A stretch of DNA of 64,000 nt from Centroberyx gerrardi. Its lineage: Eukaryota; Chordata; Actinopteri; Beryciformes; Berycidae. The stretch is from positions 17,096,676 to 17,160,675 of the forward strand of contig NC_136016.1 of assembly GCF_048128805.1 (NCBI RefSeq), read 5' to 3'. The stretch's first letter is position 1. Each line of letters starts with the position of its first letter. Below, piece after piece: positions 6,556 through 63,707 of the stretch. The translations under genes were made by a program, and so were the position numbers. Under the pieces are notes generated by a model. That model saw nothing but the letters and a program-made list of their open reading frames with translations, was not told the DNA's origin and did no database searches.

Positions 6556-7260
6556 GGTCAGCGGTTATTAAAGTGGGATCCGGGGACCACCAGGGGACCT
6601 TGAAAGGGTTCCAGGAGGTCCAACAGTTTAAAGCTGCATTAGGCAACTTTGTAAGTCAGCAGCTCCAAATGACATGTTTGAAAATTTGACATTTTTTAAC
6701 ATCAATACCCAGAAATCATGTAACATGAGGTCAGCAAACTGCACAGCAAGCTCATTTTTACCAACCCAGCAGGTCTGTGATCACTTTGTACTAAAGGGAG
6801 GAGAGAGGCAAAAGATCTAATGTTGGTGAGTCCAACTTTCTCGCTCGCTGCTGTTTAGGAGACCCCCTTTTGTATTTCGCTTTTAACTTTCGATTCATCA
6901 CTTCCTGTGGGCAGAGAAGTGTCTACACCTGACACCAGAATTTAATTTGGGCAAATCTACAGGGTCTCAATTAGTTGGGATGGGACGCTCTTCTCTGCTG
7001 CAGCCCCACTTTGTGATTTAGGCTGATAAGATAGTTTTTAGCTTAAAATCTTCCCTATAGTGTAGCTTTAGATAGATTTTGATTATAGGTTTCACTGCTC
7101 CCTCTACACCTACAGGCCTAGACAAAGTTATGGAAATACTATACTAAATCATATCTCACCACTAAAATCTTCGCATATGGGGTTCCTTAGGACAAAATCG
7201 GGTCCATTGTCAAATGTGCATCTAACAGGGGTCCTTAGCATGAAATAGTTGGCAGCATGA
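6556..7260. mobile_element. Nested nonautonomous elements
   Basis: Outer element: text of the form GTGGGATCCGGGGACC at 6571 and ACAGGGGTCCTTAGCATG near 7226 resembles the two halves of a hAT-type fish repeat. Inner element: about 6628-7071, with inverted ends TTTAAAGCTGCATTAGG and CCTATAGTGTAGCTTTA, near-complementary. The inner element appears to have inserted into the outer one. No transposase frame. Confidence 0.45.
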
Positions 7261-7439
7261 AATAGCTGAAAGCCTTTATCCCAATATGCTGTTTATGTAG
7301 GCTAAGCTTTCATGGTTAGAAGAAGGCTAAAAAACTATGCAGCAGCCACTCTATGGTGCGGCAAAAAATGTCCCTGCTTGATAGGAAATGTGTGAAGTGA
7401 GATGAGTGAGGTGAGGAAGCTGAATAGGTTACTTTTGGA

Positions 7440-7866
7440 AATGCAAAGATGCTCTGACGTCACGCTGTTGAAATATTTTTCTGTCGCTCAGGCGTTTGGA
7501 GCTGACAGTCCGGTGAAGTTGCCAGAGAGCGCACTTCCCTTGTTTTCCACCCGTGCGTAATGGCCATGGTCATGTCCAGGACTTCCACAGGAGGATATCA
7601 TTTCCAAACTCATTGCGCAGTGAAGGATGGCTTTTTAATTAATGAACCGAAGAGAGAGGACACAGATGGACTGGGTTGGCATGATCCGCGATGAAGTGAT
7701 GGAAGTGTAGCCTACCAATTGACAAAACGCAGAAGTGCTCTGATGTATTTTTTTTCTTCAGTAGAGACAGCGCACAGTGTTCAGGCATAGAAGCGATTAA
7801 AACAATCAGAAAGCAAGGAACGCAAAATCAATTAGAAAAACATGCACTATTCGTATCCATGGAGAG
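7440..7866 (+). promoter_or_regulatory. hs3st2: hs3st2 promoter/5' leader with CRE palindrome
   Basis: A full cAMP-response palindrome TGACGTCA lies at 7455-7462, about 400 bp before the start codon, in a CpG-richer stretch that leads into the 5' untranslated region. Two ATGs precede the chosen start out of frame, at 7842 and 7859. The former opens a frame overlapping exon 1, so translation may be damped by upstream initiation. The transcription start cannot be placed by eye. Confidence 0.45.
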
Positions 7867-10800
7867 ATGGCATGCGTGCTCCTCCTCAGTCGAGTTCTGC
7901 CGTCCTCACACAGGCTCACAAGAACATCTATTTGTTTATTATCCATCTTCCTTACATATTTGTGCTACTGTGTACTATTCTCTTCCGATACCATCATGCA
8001 AAAGTCAGGTGATCCAACGCCCAGCTGTCGGCGCGTCCCGGTTGATGGAGGCAAAAGGCGCCTTCAAAAATCTCTCTCTTGCGTTTTGCCTTTGGATGCA
8101 AGGCAGAGCAATGTGCATACATCTCAGCTGAAAACCGACCAGAGACCCCTTTCGTATTTCAACACTGTTCGGAATGACACGCCGAGTCCTTCGATGGGTA
8201 ATTTAAAGTTTGGGAATAAAAAGTTGCCCAATGCCATAATAGTCGGTGTGAAAAAGGGTGGGACAAGGGCTGTGCTGGAGTTTATCAGAATTCATCCAGA
8301 CGTGCGAGCAGTTGGCACCGAAACACACTTTTTCGACAGGAACTATGACCGAGGTCTAGACTGGTACAGGTAAGAACACGGCTTACCTGCACAGGTGTAT
8401 GTCTGAAGTCTAGTCCAGTGGTACTCAAACGTGTTCATGTCACGGACCACCAAATAGATAAATTACCAAATAGATAAATTAAGCAATGGCCACAATTTGA
8501 TAAGATTTTGTCTCAAGAACCCCCATATGGGAAGATATGTTGTTATTGATTTGTTATTAAATTGTAAAACTCACATGGAGAGATAATGGTGGAGAGTGAG
8601 ACTATGATTACAGTAGTCATTGTTATACGATTCTCTAATTGGAATGATTACTAGTAAGTTAAATTGCAGTGGAATCAAACTATTATCCTACTCATTTTGC
8701 TGGGGGACCCTCTCAAATCCCCTCAAGGACTCCCGGGGGTCTCTGGACCCGACCTTGAGAACCACTCCTCTAGTCTACTGTGCTTGCTGGATCTTGAACT
8801 CATGTACCCTATAGCTTATTTTAGGCCTGCTCTCTTCAACATAACTGGATAATGATGGTAAGACACAAGTTTATAAGATCATGTAGGCTAGATATCCCAT
8901 GTAATCTATATGATGATTTTGACCAATGTCAATTTTGGCAAATTCAAATTGAATTCCAAATTTATTCAAACAAATATATAATTCACATGGAACTCAGAGT
9001 TCAGTTTTGGTTTGTTTATACATCAATATATATGTTGTTTTATAAGTCTTGAATACTCAAGTTTAAAGGTGCTATGTGTAGCATGTTTTAAACTTAATAT
9101 GATTGTCAAATTAACTGTGATACCTTGGTGGTCTTCCACATATAAGGGTATGTGTGTGTATGTGTTTGTGGTGGGCTCTTGGCCTCTATTCATAGGTATG
9201 CTTTCTTCTTTTCTCTTGTTTTTTTTGGGGGGTGCTGCTTTAATGAATTGTGATTGATATTGTCTAATGTTTTTCTCTCTTAAAATAAAAAAATAAAGAC
9301 AAAAACCATGGTCGAAACAATTGGCAGCCTCTATCGCACGCCAGTGTTTGTTAGTGCTAGTGTTTCTCAAAATTAAGAATACATTTCCCCATAAACCCAG
9401 CTACTGCTTCCTGTGCAAAGACAATGCTGATACTGCAGCTAAAAGTTCCCCCTCCCTTTCCCTGGTGTTGCTCTCTCTGTGTGTGTGTGTTTTCTCTTTT
9501 TCACTTTACTCAAGTGGATAAACATGTTGGAAGTGCTTTCCACCGGCCCTCCACTCGTTCCGCCATCTGCCATTGCGAGAAACTTTGAAAGCTTTAGCTC
9601 TGTTTGTACTGAAAGAACAGCAGCCCTCTTCTTGTTTTGTGATGTAAAGCTATTCAGCAGATTTCTCGTAAAATCCAGCCTGGTGGTACACAATGTAAAA
9701 TGCAGTGTAGAGGCAGGTAGAGGCTGCCAGTCTTCTCAGCAATTGTCTTGTTTGTTTACGGTAATTATACTGATGTCTCAAAATTAATGTTAAAATTAAT
9801 GATTTATTGATGTTAAAATGCTACATGTAGCACCCTAAACAAAGTGCAGTCATATGACACTATCAAAGTGTATTGCCAGAAATAGTTGGCAATACATTTT
9901 ATGGACAGTTATGTTCCCATACCTATATTAAACATTCCCATCATCATTCTATACGATAAATATATACTGGAAAATACCTGTCTGTCCATAAGATTTTCAG
10001 CAGCACTTGAACTCCGGTGTATTACACATTCATGTCACTGAATAAGGGCTTCATAACAATTGCATGGCACATTCAACCTCTCATGAAATTACCATTTTAA
10101 ACTGGAAATATGTTTTGGATTTAGCCATGAAGCAGCAAGGCTTTTAACTAAATCTAAGAGGCGTGACCATATTAGCCCTATTTTAGCTTCTCTACACTGG
10201 TTGCCAGTACATTTTAGAATTGATTTCAAGACTGGACTATCACCTTACATCTCTGACCTTTTATTCCCCTATGAGCCAAATCGCAGCCTGAGATCCTCGG
10301 GCAGTACAGTTCGTGCGCTGTTCCTAAATCCAGGCTGAAAATGAAGGGAGATCGGCCTTCTCAGTAAGGGCACCGTACTGTGGAACAAGCTGCCTGAGGA
10401 GATCAGGCTGTCTTCTTCAGTCTCTTCTTTTAAATCACTCCCAAAAACGTACTTTTACAAAGTTGTTTTTACTTAGTTTTTGTGTTCAGAATGATTGCCA
10501 TCATATTTCTGTTTTACTGGTCACTTAACCAAGTGACCTTGTTTCAAAAAGTGCTCTATAGGCTAAATAAAGTTATTATTATTCTCATTAGTAGTAGTAT
10601 GAAAAGCTGCACACACATACACACGCACACACAAATACATTTAACACTAATGATTAGCTGTCATGTAGCCTGCTGCAGGGACTTTTATCAATAGTGTTAT
10701 AAAATAATCTGAGACTGAAAAATATCTCCACTAATTGGTACTTCAGCACAGTAGGCTGCTGAAGCCCTTTCATCTCAGAGATATGTCTGAACCCTAGCCT

Positions 10801-13289
10801 ATTACGGGTGTGTGATTGTCAGCTGTCAAACCTGTCAAAACAAGGTCAAAGGCTAAACCACTGACTTGTGAGGATTGCTTTCAAAATAAACATTTGCTTT
10901 TCAGCAAAAACTCTCTTTTGAATAGTTAGACAACAACAAAGGCCAACTATTCTTTTGAGTGGTCATATTATTCCATTTTTTTCTTCACAACCAGCTGGGT
11001 CCGTTATCAATCAACAGGTGATAGTAATCAAGCGGCAGGTGTCTGACTAGAGGCTTGGCAGTTGCATCACAAATCACCTAACAACCGCGGCTGGCGCCAT
11101 CATGGAGGTCCATTAGAGAATTGGCTGTGCACAAATAATGGCTAAATATAAAAGAGAACTGGCATGGCGAGAAACAGAGAAATACCTGAAAAAGATTGTT
11201 GTGGTGTGGGTGTAGATCCATTCAGTAGCGTGTGAGTGTGTTTGTCTGTCTCTCCATGTTCACCCTGTGATGGTCTAGCAACTTGGCCAGGGTGTTTCCC
11301 TGCCTTCTGCCCAGTGCATGCTGGGATAGGCTCCAGCCCCCTGAGACCCTGAAAAGTAATAAGTAGGTAAAGATAATGAACGAATGAATTAGTTTACATT
11401 CAAAAACAGCACAGAAATGAACCCTATTGCATTCTGCTCTCCTCACTGCCACTGCTGCCCAACAGCTGTGGACCTCCACTATGGCAGCCAGAGGATGCGT
11501 TAGGTCGCCTGAAAGCCCTCCATAAGAGCTCATTATCAATACCAAGAATTCAGTCGAATAAAACAATCAGAAAGCAAGGAACGCAAAATCAATTAGAAAA
11601 ACATGCACTATTCGTATCCATGGAGAGATGGAGTCGATACTTATGTCCTTGTGGGAAAATGAACTTCTCAAGAACATGAGCACAGAGAATGCATTACAGT
11701 TCGAGATGGGCTGTGCGCTTGAGCTTACAGTTTCAGTCGACTGTGCTGTAGACTATAGTGCTGTTAATTTTTGCCAGCTAATTTAGACATGGTGCATTGC
11801 TCTCACCATTTGTTCTTGTCGGTTGCCAAATCAATGCATCTTCAATACTTTGTGGATTGCAAGGAAACTTCCAGAATCTTCATCCGTCCTCTGTCCTTGG
11901 CATTCTTTTGTTTTGGAATCATACTTCTGATATTGGATATTATATCATACGCGACATGGGGGACACAAAAACGCATATTGAGAAAGTGTTACATTAGTAG
12001 GAATTAATTTTAGTTTTTTGTTGTTTCCCCCCCCCCCCTACTATTTTTAGCATGGCTCTTTTTATACCCCTATTGACACCAGCAAGGCTCTGGTGCTGAA
12101 TCAGTTGTCAAAGTTTTACATCTCACTGATGTAAAAAACATTTTTTTAGTTTAAGTGCAGGTCTACCTGTTAAAAGAATATCTTACAAGTACAATGGCCT
12201 AGTTTTTAGACCCAGAAGTAACCCAACAGAGTCACCCTCCTCTATGTGTTCTGTTTGCATACCTGGTGATTTATTACTCTTGAACCAAATGCCGGGCTGA
12301 TGCACAGGAGAGATGTCTCCGAGACAAGTCTCCTGTGACAACATACTACTATGACTTTGCTTCAGTGCTCCTATTATCATTTTCATCGGGAAACTGGGTT
12401 CAGAGCCAAACTGGAGCTTCCTAGTTAGGGTGATTTTGTGCCTTTGCAACTCACTGGCACAATCCTGGCCTAAATAGACATTTAATGTACACTTTTTCCA
12501 TTTGACAGCATAAATGGAAGGGCATTTTGTTGTATTGTTGTAAAGTAGGCAATTCAAAACAATTATACGATGAATATACTCCACTTAAAGTAATGTGAAT
12601 GTCAATATGCCTTAAGGTAAAACATATTTTACTCAGGCTTTCATTTTATGTCTTTTCATCCTTCATTCAGAGGTCTAATGCCAAGGACTCTGGAAAGCCA
12701 GATCACCATGGAGAAGACACCAAGCTACTTCGTGACAAAAGAAACACCCCACCGGATCTCTGCCATGTCCCGAGATACCAAGCTCATCGTCGTAGTTCGT
12801 GACCCTGTCACCCGTGCAATATCAGATTACACACAGACTTTATCCAAAACGCCCGACCTTCCAAGTTTCCAAGACTTGGCCTTCAGAAACCAGAGCCTGG
12901 GCCTTGTGGACACATCCTGGAATGCCATTCGGATCGGCCTGTACGCTCTGCATCTTGAGAACTGGCTTCGCTACTTCCCTCTGGCTCAGATCCACTTTGT
13001 CAGCGGAGAGCGCCTTATCACGGACCCAGCAGGGGAGTTGGCACGAGTGCAGGACTTCCTTGGGCTAAAACGCATCGTCACAGACAAACACTTCTATTTC
13101 AACCGGACCAAGGGTTTCCCTTGCCTCAAGAAGCCGGAGAGCAGTAGTTCACCCCGCTGCCTGGGCAAGTCCAAGGGTAGAACTCATGTGCAGATAGATA
13201 GGGATGCTATTGAGCAATTGCGAGACTTCTATAGACCTTACAATGTCAAATTTTATGAAATGGTGGGCCATGATTTCAGATGGGAGTGA
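7867..13289 (+). CDS. hs3st2: Heparan sulfate glucosamine 3-O-sulfotransferase 2
   Basis: Coding exons 7867-8369 and 12671-13289 (phase 2 junction), 373 aa; human HS3ST2 is 367 aa. It is a Golgi type II membrane enzyme that moves sulfate from PAPS to the 3-OH of glucosamine in heparan sulfate. The signal anchor is about residues 19-38 ([11 protein letters not shown] resembles the human TYLCYSFLC). The 5'-PAPS loop GVKKGGTR is at 127-134, the catalytic Glu in TETHFFD at about 152, and the 3'-phosphate-binding segment [18 protein letters not shown] starts at about 206. The conserved cysteine pair lies in GFPCLKKP...[10 protein letters not shown]. The C-terminus GRTHVQID...[11 protein letters not shown]...DFRWE fits HS3ST2 better than HS3ST3 or HS3ST4. 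The start at 7867 is chosen because only that frame continues into the anchor and catalytic domain. Confidence 0.95.
8416..8767. mobile_element. hAT-type miniature element in hs3st2 intron 1
   Basis: Inverted ends CAGTGGTACTCAAAC and CTTGAGAACCACTC flank 352 bp without coding capacity. The 8-bp target duplication is GTCTAGTC (8408-8415) against CTCTAGTC (8768-8775), 7 of 8 matching, which fits the hAT superfamily. The insertion begins only 38 bp after the exon 1 splice donor at 8370. A related fragment is at 62860-63000. Confidence 0.8.
9061..9840. mobile_element. TIR element in hs3st2 intron 1
   Basis: The left end GTTTAAAGGTGCTATGTGTA and the right end CTACATGTAGCACCCTAAAC are inverted copies over about 26 bp with a few mismatches. 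The 780-bp interior has only short frames with no transposase resemblance. The superfamily is unassigned. Confidence 0.65.
10110..10585 (+). mobile_element. LINE 3' fragment, L2/CR1 group
   Basis: Translation of about 10125-10335 gives the end of a non-LTR reverse transcriptase [20 protein letters not shown], then [20 protein letters not shown] and RSLRSSGS, the well-known LHWLPV block of fish L2/Rex1-type LINEs. Compared with that family, a short stretch before SPYISDL (usually containing VYKALHG) is missing, and a frame change follows PG near 10337. The tail AAATAAAGTTATTATTATT at about 10566 ends the copy. 5'-truncated and dead. Confidence 0.75.
11215..11395 (+). repeat. Widespread fish retroposon 3' end
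   Basis: Contains CACCCTGTGATGGTCTAGCA, CAGTGCATGCTGGGATAGGC and TCCAGCCCCCTGAGACCCTG, and ends in GATAATGAACGAATGAATTA. I recognise this as a retroposon tail common in many fish genomes (LINE or LINE-mobilised SINE). The exact family is not certain. Confidence 0.6.
11559..11631 (+). repeat. 73-bp exact copy of the hs3st2 start region, inside intron 1
   Basis: Identical base for base to 7798-7870, which spans the end of the 5' leader and the first ATGs of hs3st2, in the same orientation and 3761 bp downstream. The copy is bracketed by the direct hexamer AGTCGA (11552-11557 and 11632-11637). The ATG equivalent to the real start opens a different 52-codon frame here (11628-11786) because the downstream sequence differs. 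It has no resemblance to a known protein. Confidence 0.9.
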
Positions 13290-18269: not shown

Positions 18270-18622
18270 TCCACAAAAACTTCCCCACCCTTTGGCGGCC
18301 ACAGTTTTTGCCCTAGGAGGCTGAAATTTGGCATGGAGGTCAAGTGTGTGTGTGTGTGTGTGAAGGTGTGTGTTTGTGTTCATGCCAATTGGCTAAAAGG
18401 GGGCGTGGTAATGGGAGTGGCCTATCGCAAAAAGACGCATAACTTCCAAATGGATTCACAGACTTGCACAGATTTTGTGGAAAGGTTGGTCATGAGCCAA
18501 AGGACAGCTGATTAATTGTTCATGCCAATTGGTAAAAAGGGGGTGTGGTAGTGGGAGTGGCCTATAACAAAAAGGTGCATACTGTAACTGTGGCCGCCAA
18601 AGGGTGGGGAAATTTTTGTGTA
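18270..18622. mobile_element. Foldback/TIR element with 37-bp arms
   Basis: Arms at 18270-18306 and 18586-18622 are inverted copies with two mismatches, sharing the core CCCCACCCTTTGGCGGCCAC. The interior holds two imperfect direct copies of a block beginning CATGCCAATTGG (18381 and 18520), about 140 bp apart. A GGTT run precedes the left arm. No coding capacity. Confidence 0.75.
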
Positions 18623-42052: not shown

Positions 42053-42411
42053 TACACTACCAGTCAGCAGTTTGGACACATGCATTTTTACTATTTTTCA
42101 CATTTTAGAACAATAGTAAAGACATCAAAACTATGAAATAACACAAATTGAATTATACAGTGACCAAAAAAGTGTTAAACAAGTCAAAACTATCTTACAT
42201 TTTAGATTCTTTAAAGTAGCCGCCCTTTGCCTTGATGGAAAGGCAAAGGCTTTAGAAAGAAATTCATACATAGGCATCAACTTCACTATTTATATTTGTC
42301 TAACCAAATTTCAAGCATTTAAGCATAAGCCTTTAGATCAAAATGGCTTTAAGAGAATGAAAAACATAGTACATTCAATCAGGTGTGTCCAAACTTTTGA
42401 CTGGTAGGGTA
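42053..42411. mobile_element. Tc1/mariner-like MITE
   Basis: Inverted ends TACACTACCAGTCAGCAGTT and ACTTTTGACTGGTAGGGTA with flanking TA fit the Tc1/mariner group. The 359-bp body is noncoding and contains a perfect internal hairpin, CCTTTGCCTT and AAGGCAAAGG, around 42234-42250. A second copy with the same internal deletion starts at 63372. Confidence 0.75.
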
Positions 42412-61529: not shown

Positions 61530-62003
61530 TTTTACCTCCGCCAAGGAGGTTATGTTTTCGGTGCCGTTTGTTTGTCTGTTTGCCAGCAGGATTACGGAAA
61601 AACTACTGGGCCGATTTTCATGAAACTTCGTGGAAGGGTGTAGCATGGGCTAAGGAAGAACCCATTCAATTTTGGAGCGGATCCGGATCCGACTCACGAA
61701 ATTTGCATATCATAGTAGACTGGACTATTGGCCTTATGGCGGAGGTCTGCGCTCTCCGAGTGCCCTTCTAGTTTGTTTGTTTGTTTGTTTGTTTGTTTGT
61801 CTGTTTGTCAGCAGGATTACGGAAAAACTACTGGCCCGATTTTCATGAAACTTCGTGGAAGGGTGTAGCATGGGCCAAGGAAGAACCCATTAAATTTTGG
61901 AGCGGATCCGCATATTGGTTGCGCTTGTACATTTGCATATCATAGAAGACTGGACTATTGGCCTTGGCGGAGGTCTGCGCTCTCCGAGTGCCCTTCTAGT
62001 TTG
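61530..62003. repeat. Tandem pair of a 225-bp interspersed repeat
   Basis: First unit about 61538-61771, starting ACCTCCGCCAAGGAGG and ending GGCGGAGGTCTGCGC...CCCTTCTAGTTTG. The 9-bp ends ACCTCCGCC and GGCGGAGGT are inverted copies. The body (GCAGGATTACGGAAAAACTA) recurs 225 bp later. The second unit lacks the left end and instead follows a (TTTG)n run at 61769-61800. The units are nearly identical. Confidence 0.8.
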
Positions 62004-62024
62004 GTTATATTATTCTAATACGGA

Positions 62025-63371: not shown

Positions 63372-63707
63372 TACACTACCGGTCAAAATTTTGGACACAC
63401 ACATTTTTCTTTATTTTTACTATTTTTCACATTTTAGAATAATAGTAAAGACATCAAAACTGTGAAATAACACAAATGGAATTATGCAGTGACCAAAAAA
63501 GTGTTAAACAAATCAAAACTATCTTATATTTTAGATTCTTTAAAGGAGCCGCCCTTTGCCTTGATGGAAAGGCAAAGGCTTTGGAAAGAAATTCACACAA
63601 AGGCATCAACTTCACTATTTATATTTGTCTAGGAAACACATTTCAAGCATTTAAGCATAAGCCTTTAGATCAGAGTGGCTTTAAGATAATGAAAAACAGT
63701 AATAGTT
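63372..63707. mobile_element. Tc1/mariner-like MITE, second copy
   Basis: Starts TACACTACCGGTCAAAATTT and follows the 42053 copy closely, including the hairpin CCTTTGCCTTGATGGAAAGG. It stops matching after GATAATGAAAAACA, where LINE-like sequence follows, so the right terminal repeat is missing. Confidence 0.7.

Follow-up and report, generated by a model that had tools for sequence, protein, structure and literature searches.

The 64,000-nucleotide stretch of Centroberyx gerrardi DNA analysed here, referred to as the window, contains a gene that, judged from its protein matches, is a heparan sulfate 3-O-sulfotransferase gene. The second exon (query 12672-13289) matches HS3ST3A1 in the PDB with an E-value of 3e-110, and 3-O-sulfotransferases 5 and 1 are matched more weakly. 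Both exons match the Pfam family Sulfotransfer_1, exon 1 only barely (22.5 bits with a cut-off of 22). From the N-terminus and the neighbouring genes we take the gene to be hs3st2 and not one of its close paralogues. Exon 1 runs to 8369 and is followed by a splice donor site, GTAAGA, at 8370, and frame analysis places the opening of the frame running into this site at an ATG at 7867 (start codon 7867-7869). The leader contains two further, out-of-frame ATGs at 7842 and 7859, which open frames of 56 and 90 codons, respectively (region 7842-8131). Both frames extend across the main start codon (7867), and upstream-frame control of the sulfotransferase is possible.

Intron 1 of the gene carries an exact copy of the sequence around the gene's own start codon. 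BLASTN and direct comparison within the window have shown that the intron segment is identical to the exon 1 segment at 73 of 73 bases (Table 1). Since the start codon lies at 7867, the donor segment consists of 69 nt of leader followed by ATGG. The two segments have the same orientation on the same strand and lie about 3.69 kb apart. A longer match of 76 out of 77 bases (11555-11631 against 7794-7870; E 3e-33 within the window) includes a single mismatch, T7797 versus A11558, so that of the CGAT adjoining the donor only CGA (11555-11557) is intact in the acceptor and T is replaced by A. The hexamer AGTCGA flanks the intron copy on both sides, and the description of the locus in the first-pass annotation as a perfect 73-bp copy bracketed by AGTCGA thus holds base for base. 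A 6-nt direct repeat was found around a random 73-nt segment in 0.08% of 200,000 random placements, when hexamers that abut the segment, or that stand one base away from its left end (the case at 11558), were counted. The copy begins with TAAAACAA and ends with GAGATGG, and a poly(A/T) run of at least 5 nt is present at neither end.

Table 1. Positions in the window of the copied segment, its junctions, the interrupted repeat and the second exon of the host gene.
Feature	Position	Strand	Basis
Donor: 69 nt of 5' UTR and ATGG of the 3-O-sulfotransferase gene	7798..7870	+	Exact match to 11559-11631
CGAT adjoining the left end of the donor	7794..7797	+	Direct reading; 76/77 match
TCAGTCGA beyond the donor	7886..7893	+	8-mer equal to the left target flank 11550-11557
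Old dispersed repeat split by the insertion	11520..11985	+	Loci L003-L008; limits approximate, matches patchy (74-88%)
Left AGTCGA of the probable 6-nt target duplication	11552..11557	+	Direct reading, paralogue alignments
Lone A at the left junction	11558	+	T expected from both donor and duplicated target
Acceptor copy in intron 1	11559..11631	+	73/73 identity, no match found outside this locus in two genome searches
Right AGTCGA of the probable 6-nt target duplication, running on into the old repeat	11632..11637	+	Direct reading, paralogue loci
Exon 2 of the 3-O-sulfotransferase gene	12671..13289	+	PDB and Pfam matches, frame analysis

The genome assembly of the species (778.9 Mb, 278 contigs) was searched with very common words and simple repeats skipped, and so the counts of repeat copies are lower bounds. 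A query consisting of the donor and its downstream sequence matched two places, the donor and the acceptor, and no third place for the 73-mer was found in the 778.9 Mb with either the donor or the acceptor query. A pattern scan of IMG/VR with a 33-mer of the copy gave no matches, which is uninformative here. The acceptor query also matched six further loci, L003-L008, only by the sequence to the right of the copy. These matches begin at the first base of the right AGTCGA in four of the six loci and 23-24 nt further in for the other two. The identity of these loci to the window is 80-97% over the pieces returned by the genome search and 74-88% over the pieces of the follow-up alignments, and on this similarity the six loci represent whole or partial copies of an old dispersed repeat.

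At the corresponding point of this repeat, AGTCGA is present once and free of any insert in four of the six paralogues (L003, L004, L005 and L007), L008 differs there and L006 falls short of it. When the filled site was aligned with MAFFT, the insert was not opened as a gap, and pairwise alignments were used instead. L003, L004 and L005 align straight across the junction when the two flanks are joined, with scores of 102, 102 and 110, respectively, versus 94, 82 and 90 when the insert is kept. The scores of L006, L007 and L008 are equal with or without the insert because their best local alignment begins at or to the right of the junction. The 28 nt to the left of the hexamer give a summed score of 65 over five family left flanks (L006 was left out for lack of an anchor, and L007 adds only 4), and none of 3000 random pieces of the window reached 65 (maximum 64). 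The insert-free paralogues with a single AGTCGA, together with the alignment across the joined flanks, indicate that the intron copy is the derived one and that the hexamer is probably a duplicated target. From these alignments we conclude that the insertion entered a pre-existing repeat copy with a single AGTCGA, with exon 1 as the donor and the intron as the acceptor. The suggestion made in the first-pass annotation, of a target-site duplication or a templated repair insertion, is thereby supported. The segment 11300-11390, some 160 nt upstream from the insertion, resembles a fish retroelement's 3' tail (GGGATAGGCTCCAGCCCCC...GAATGAAT).

Repair-mediated duplications, as described by Pace et al. 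(2009, PLoS Genet; PMC2671141), comprise 824 human cases with a donor within 5 kb and 80 cases in zebrafish. Their description asks for an insert of at least 50 bp breaking a dispersed repeat; the insert here is 73 nt long, and three of the six repeat loci align across the joined flanks. The inserted sequence should occur at exactly one other genomic place, and here it is found at the donor and acceptor only, in a search where repeat counts are lower bounds. In the published class the distance to the donor is over 50 bp and under 5 kb; here it is about 3.69 kb, on the same strand, and both ends of the copy are free of a terminal poly(A/T) of at least 5 bp. The junction signs are the duplicated AGTCGA, the CGAT common to donor and target and the changed last base of that CGAT in the copy. 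In every respect compared, the intron copy agrees with this description, and it very probably belongs to this known class. A single proximal donor, microhomology with a short target duplication, examples from fish and donors in 5' UTRs (five human donors lie within a 5' UTR) are likewise reported in PMC2671141, where the junctions show microhomology of 2-9 nt, target duplications of 4-21 nt and filler of 1-68 nt. In contrast to the cases of that report, the empty site here comes from paralogous repeat copies rather than from related species, three of the six aligning across the junction, and the host repeat family is known from six loci rather than from a curated consensus.

These observations lead to the interpretation that the intron copy is very probably a repair-mediated duplication, that is, the scar of imperfect break repair within an old repeat copy in intron 1. 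The junctions read AGTCGAT followed by ACTT in the target and GCGAT followed by TAAAAC in the donor, and hence CGAT is common to both at the left junction. This CGAT, shared with the target AGTCGAT at 11632-11638, is a possible priming microhomology. On the likeliest route, held with slightly better than even confidence, a staggered break, or two close opposite nicks, would have arisen at AGTCGA(T), and the filled-in 3' end ending in AGTCGAT would have annealed through CGAT to the donor at 7794-7797, 3.7 kb upstream on the same chromosome. The 73 nt up to 7870 would then have been copied, and the released strand would have been sealed by end joining to the second filled-in end, AGTCGATACTT, with AGTCGA left on either side and one altered base at 11558. 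The A at 11558 may be a priming error, a one-base filler or a later substitution. The ancestral empty site would read AATTCAGTCGATACTT if the target was duplicated in this way. It is probably by chance that the copy stops so close behind the start codon. CST/Pol alpha fill-in at staggered breaks is reported to give small tandem duplications (PMC8355091) and could account for a short target duplication where a staggered break is joined; unlike the intron copy, the duplications described there have immediately adjacent copies with no 73-nt templated patch between them. Target duplication accounts for only six of the 39 repair-mediated duplications inspected in PMC2671141 (three with microhomology, two with microhomology and filler, and one with filler and deletion), and this minority share counts against the route preferred here.

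Simple fill-in also leaves unexplained the 8-mer TCAGTCGA, which begins 15 nt past the right end of the donor and may represent a second homology used in the repair. Within the same class of event, the left AGTCGA could instead be a second patch templated from donor positions 7888-7893, through template switching or synthesis-dependent strand annealing at the TCAGTCGA homology, together with a 2-nt deletion of the target; the ancestral site would then be AATTCCAAGTCGATACTT. The plus strand of the window contains this 8-mer at three positions (7886, 11550 and 11733) and the minus strand at none, and estimates of the chance of such a coincidence run from 0.06% (with a fixed target and all sources) up to 0.95% (in a loose test). 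The left flank of the window, AATTC-AGTCGA, is about 2 nt shorter than CCAAGTCGA, the form of four of the five listed family flanks (L008 has CCAAGTTGG), and so a small deletion is also possible; this shortfall of about 2 nt in the window form, TTCAGTCGA, suits a second patch. Such a route, however, requires either that 17 nt of the donor were jumped or that 17 nt were later deleted with no homology at the junction, whereas plain duplication of the target requires no extra step, and the coincidence of the 8-mer was spotted only post hoc. A second patch is therefore regarded as a tentative and rather unlikely account of the left junction.

Origins outside break repair with a proximal DNA template carry much less weight. 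Retrotransposition, or the capture of a 5' UTR RNA fragment whose reverse transcript served as a patch, would be compatible with the 6-nt duplication and with a donor that, from its position ahead of the start codon, is presumably a transcribed 5' leader, but the copy has its 3' end at the start codon, within the message, and the donor is just 3.69 kb away in the same orientation. Templated sequence insertion polymorphisms (TSIPs), as described in PMC5110952, likewise carry an insert copied from elsewhere in the genome. A target duplication of at least 5 bp is common to the LINE-mediated class 1 of that report and to the 6-nt AGTCGA here, but class 1 is described with poly(A) and a LINE-1 TTTT/A target, and neither a poly(A) of at least 5 nt nor a TTTT/A target is seen at the present junctions. 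Poly(A/T) was likewise absent from all 39 proximal repair-mediated duplications inspected in PMC2671141. An RNA intermediate is thus improbable. Class 2 of PMC5110952 is described as having no target duplication, and it differs in this from the intron copy, with AGTCGA on both sides and only once in four of the six paralogues. A short local mis-join in the assembly could account for the perfect identity of the two copies, yet the window contains no N and lies in a contig of 25.9 Mb, the edge has the look of repair with its 6-nt target duplication and one mismatch, and the host repeat is broken at the insertion point while its relatives are uninterrupted; an assembly artefact is very improbable.

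Two further candidates were rejected. An older large duplication is contradicted by BLASTN searches of 7000-8700 and 11200-12000 against the window, which found no collinear similarity beyond the 77-nt match. A mobile element, DNA transposon or MITE is contradicted by the finding of the sequence at only two places in the search of the 778.9 Mb assembly and by its ends, TAAAAC and GAGATGG, which are not inverted repeats.

The first-pass annotation had further proposed that the copied ATG could act as a decoy start, and that the identity of the copies must make the insertion recent, polymorphic or constrained. The ATG at 11628 does open a new frame of 52 codons ending at 11786, as had been noted, and it retains the context GGAGAGATGG, which speaks for a functional decoy start or for an alternative first exon that selection has retained. 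Frames of at least 52 codons, however, follow 116 of the 1358 plus-strand ATGs of the window (8.5%) and 137 of the 1385 minus-strand ATGs (9.9%), and since about 9% of ATGs do as well, the 52-codon frame is ordinary. The two other copied ATGs open frames of only 19 codons, the 52-residue product has no Pfam match, and a crude scan for donor patterns found a single donor-like site, at 12615, in the stretch from the copy to exon 2. The decoy start is thus unsupported, and its maintenance by selection is highly improbable. It is conceivable, but barely so, that the patch, with the native start codon, its context and both upstream ATGs, has acquired a role in intron 1 and tunes translation of the sulfotransferase, for instance by serving as an alternative first exon or by competing with the gene's own leader for a leader-binding factor. 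The intron copy is probably without function.

Substitution rates of 2e-9 to 1e-8 per site per year were assumed for the age of the copy. With these rates, zero changes in 73 nt give 95% upper age limits of about 4-20 million years if the copy alone drifts and 2-10 million years if both segments drift. It does not follow from identity, with so loose a bound of 2-20 million years, that the insertion is recent or constrained; that claim was too strong, as an age of several million years is allowed and the edge carries a mismatch at 11558.

A survey of 260 kb around the locus (including 7500 N) for pairs of 40 bp or longer with 90% identity or more and a spacing of no more than 10 kb, with overlapping and tandem pairs included, found 61 raw pairs in this one region of one chromosome, a sample that gives no genome-wide rate. 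Three pairs were left after removal of those with multiple partners within the 260 kb and of low-complexity sequence. Two of the three are inverted, with members about 350 bp apart, and the third, the 73-nt copy, is the only pair in the same orientation. The inverted pairs lie in the flanking chromosome (L012:6953-7526 and L017:8014-8742) and consist of sequences of 111 and 200 nt with 90-95% identity, about 350 nt apart. Elsewhere in the window, local direct duplications are present at 1542-2094 (96%), 61566-62006 (96-98%) and 18377-18581 (88% identical), and a sequence of about 285 nt, probably a dispersed repeat, occurs in two copies 21 kb apart with 92-95% identity (42084-42366 and 63413-63698).

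The intron copy offers a clean fish example of the capture of proximal DNA at a break, in which the donor, the acceptor, the duplicated target and the uninterrupted paralogous copies of the host repeat can all be seen within one genome. It is a datable case of 5' UTR and start-codon sequence moved into an intron of its own gene, and it leaves the picture of the sulfotransferase gene itself unchanged.
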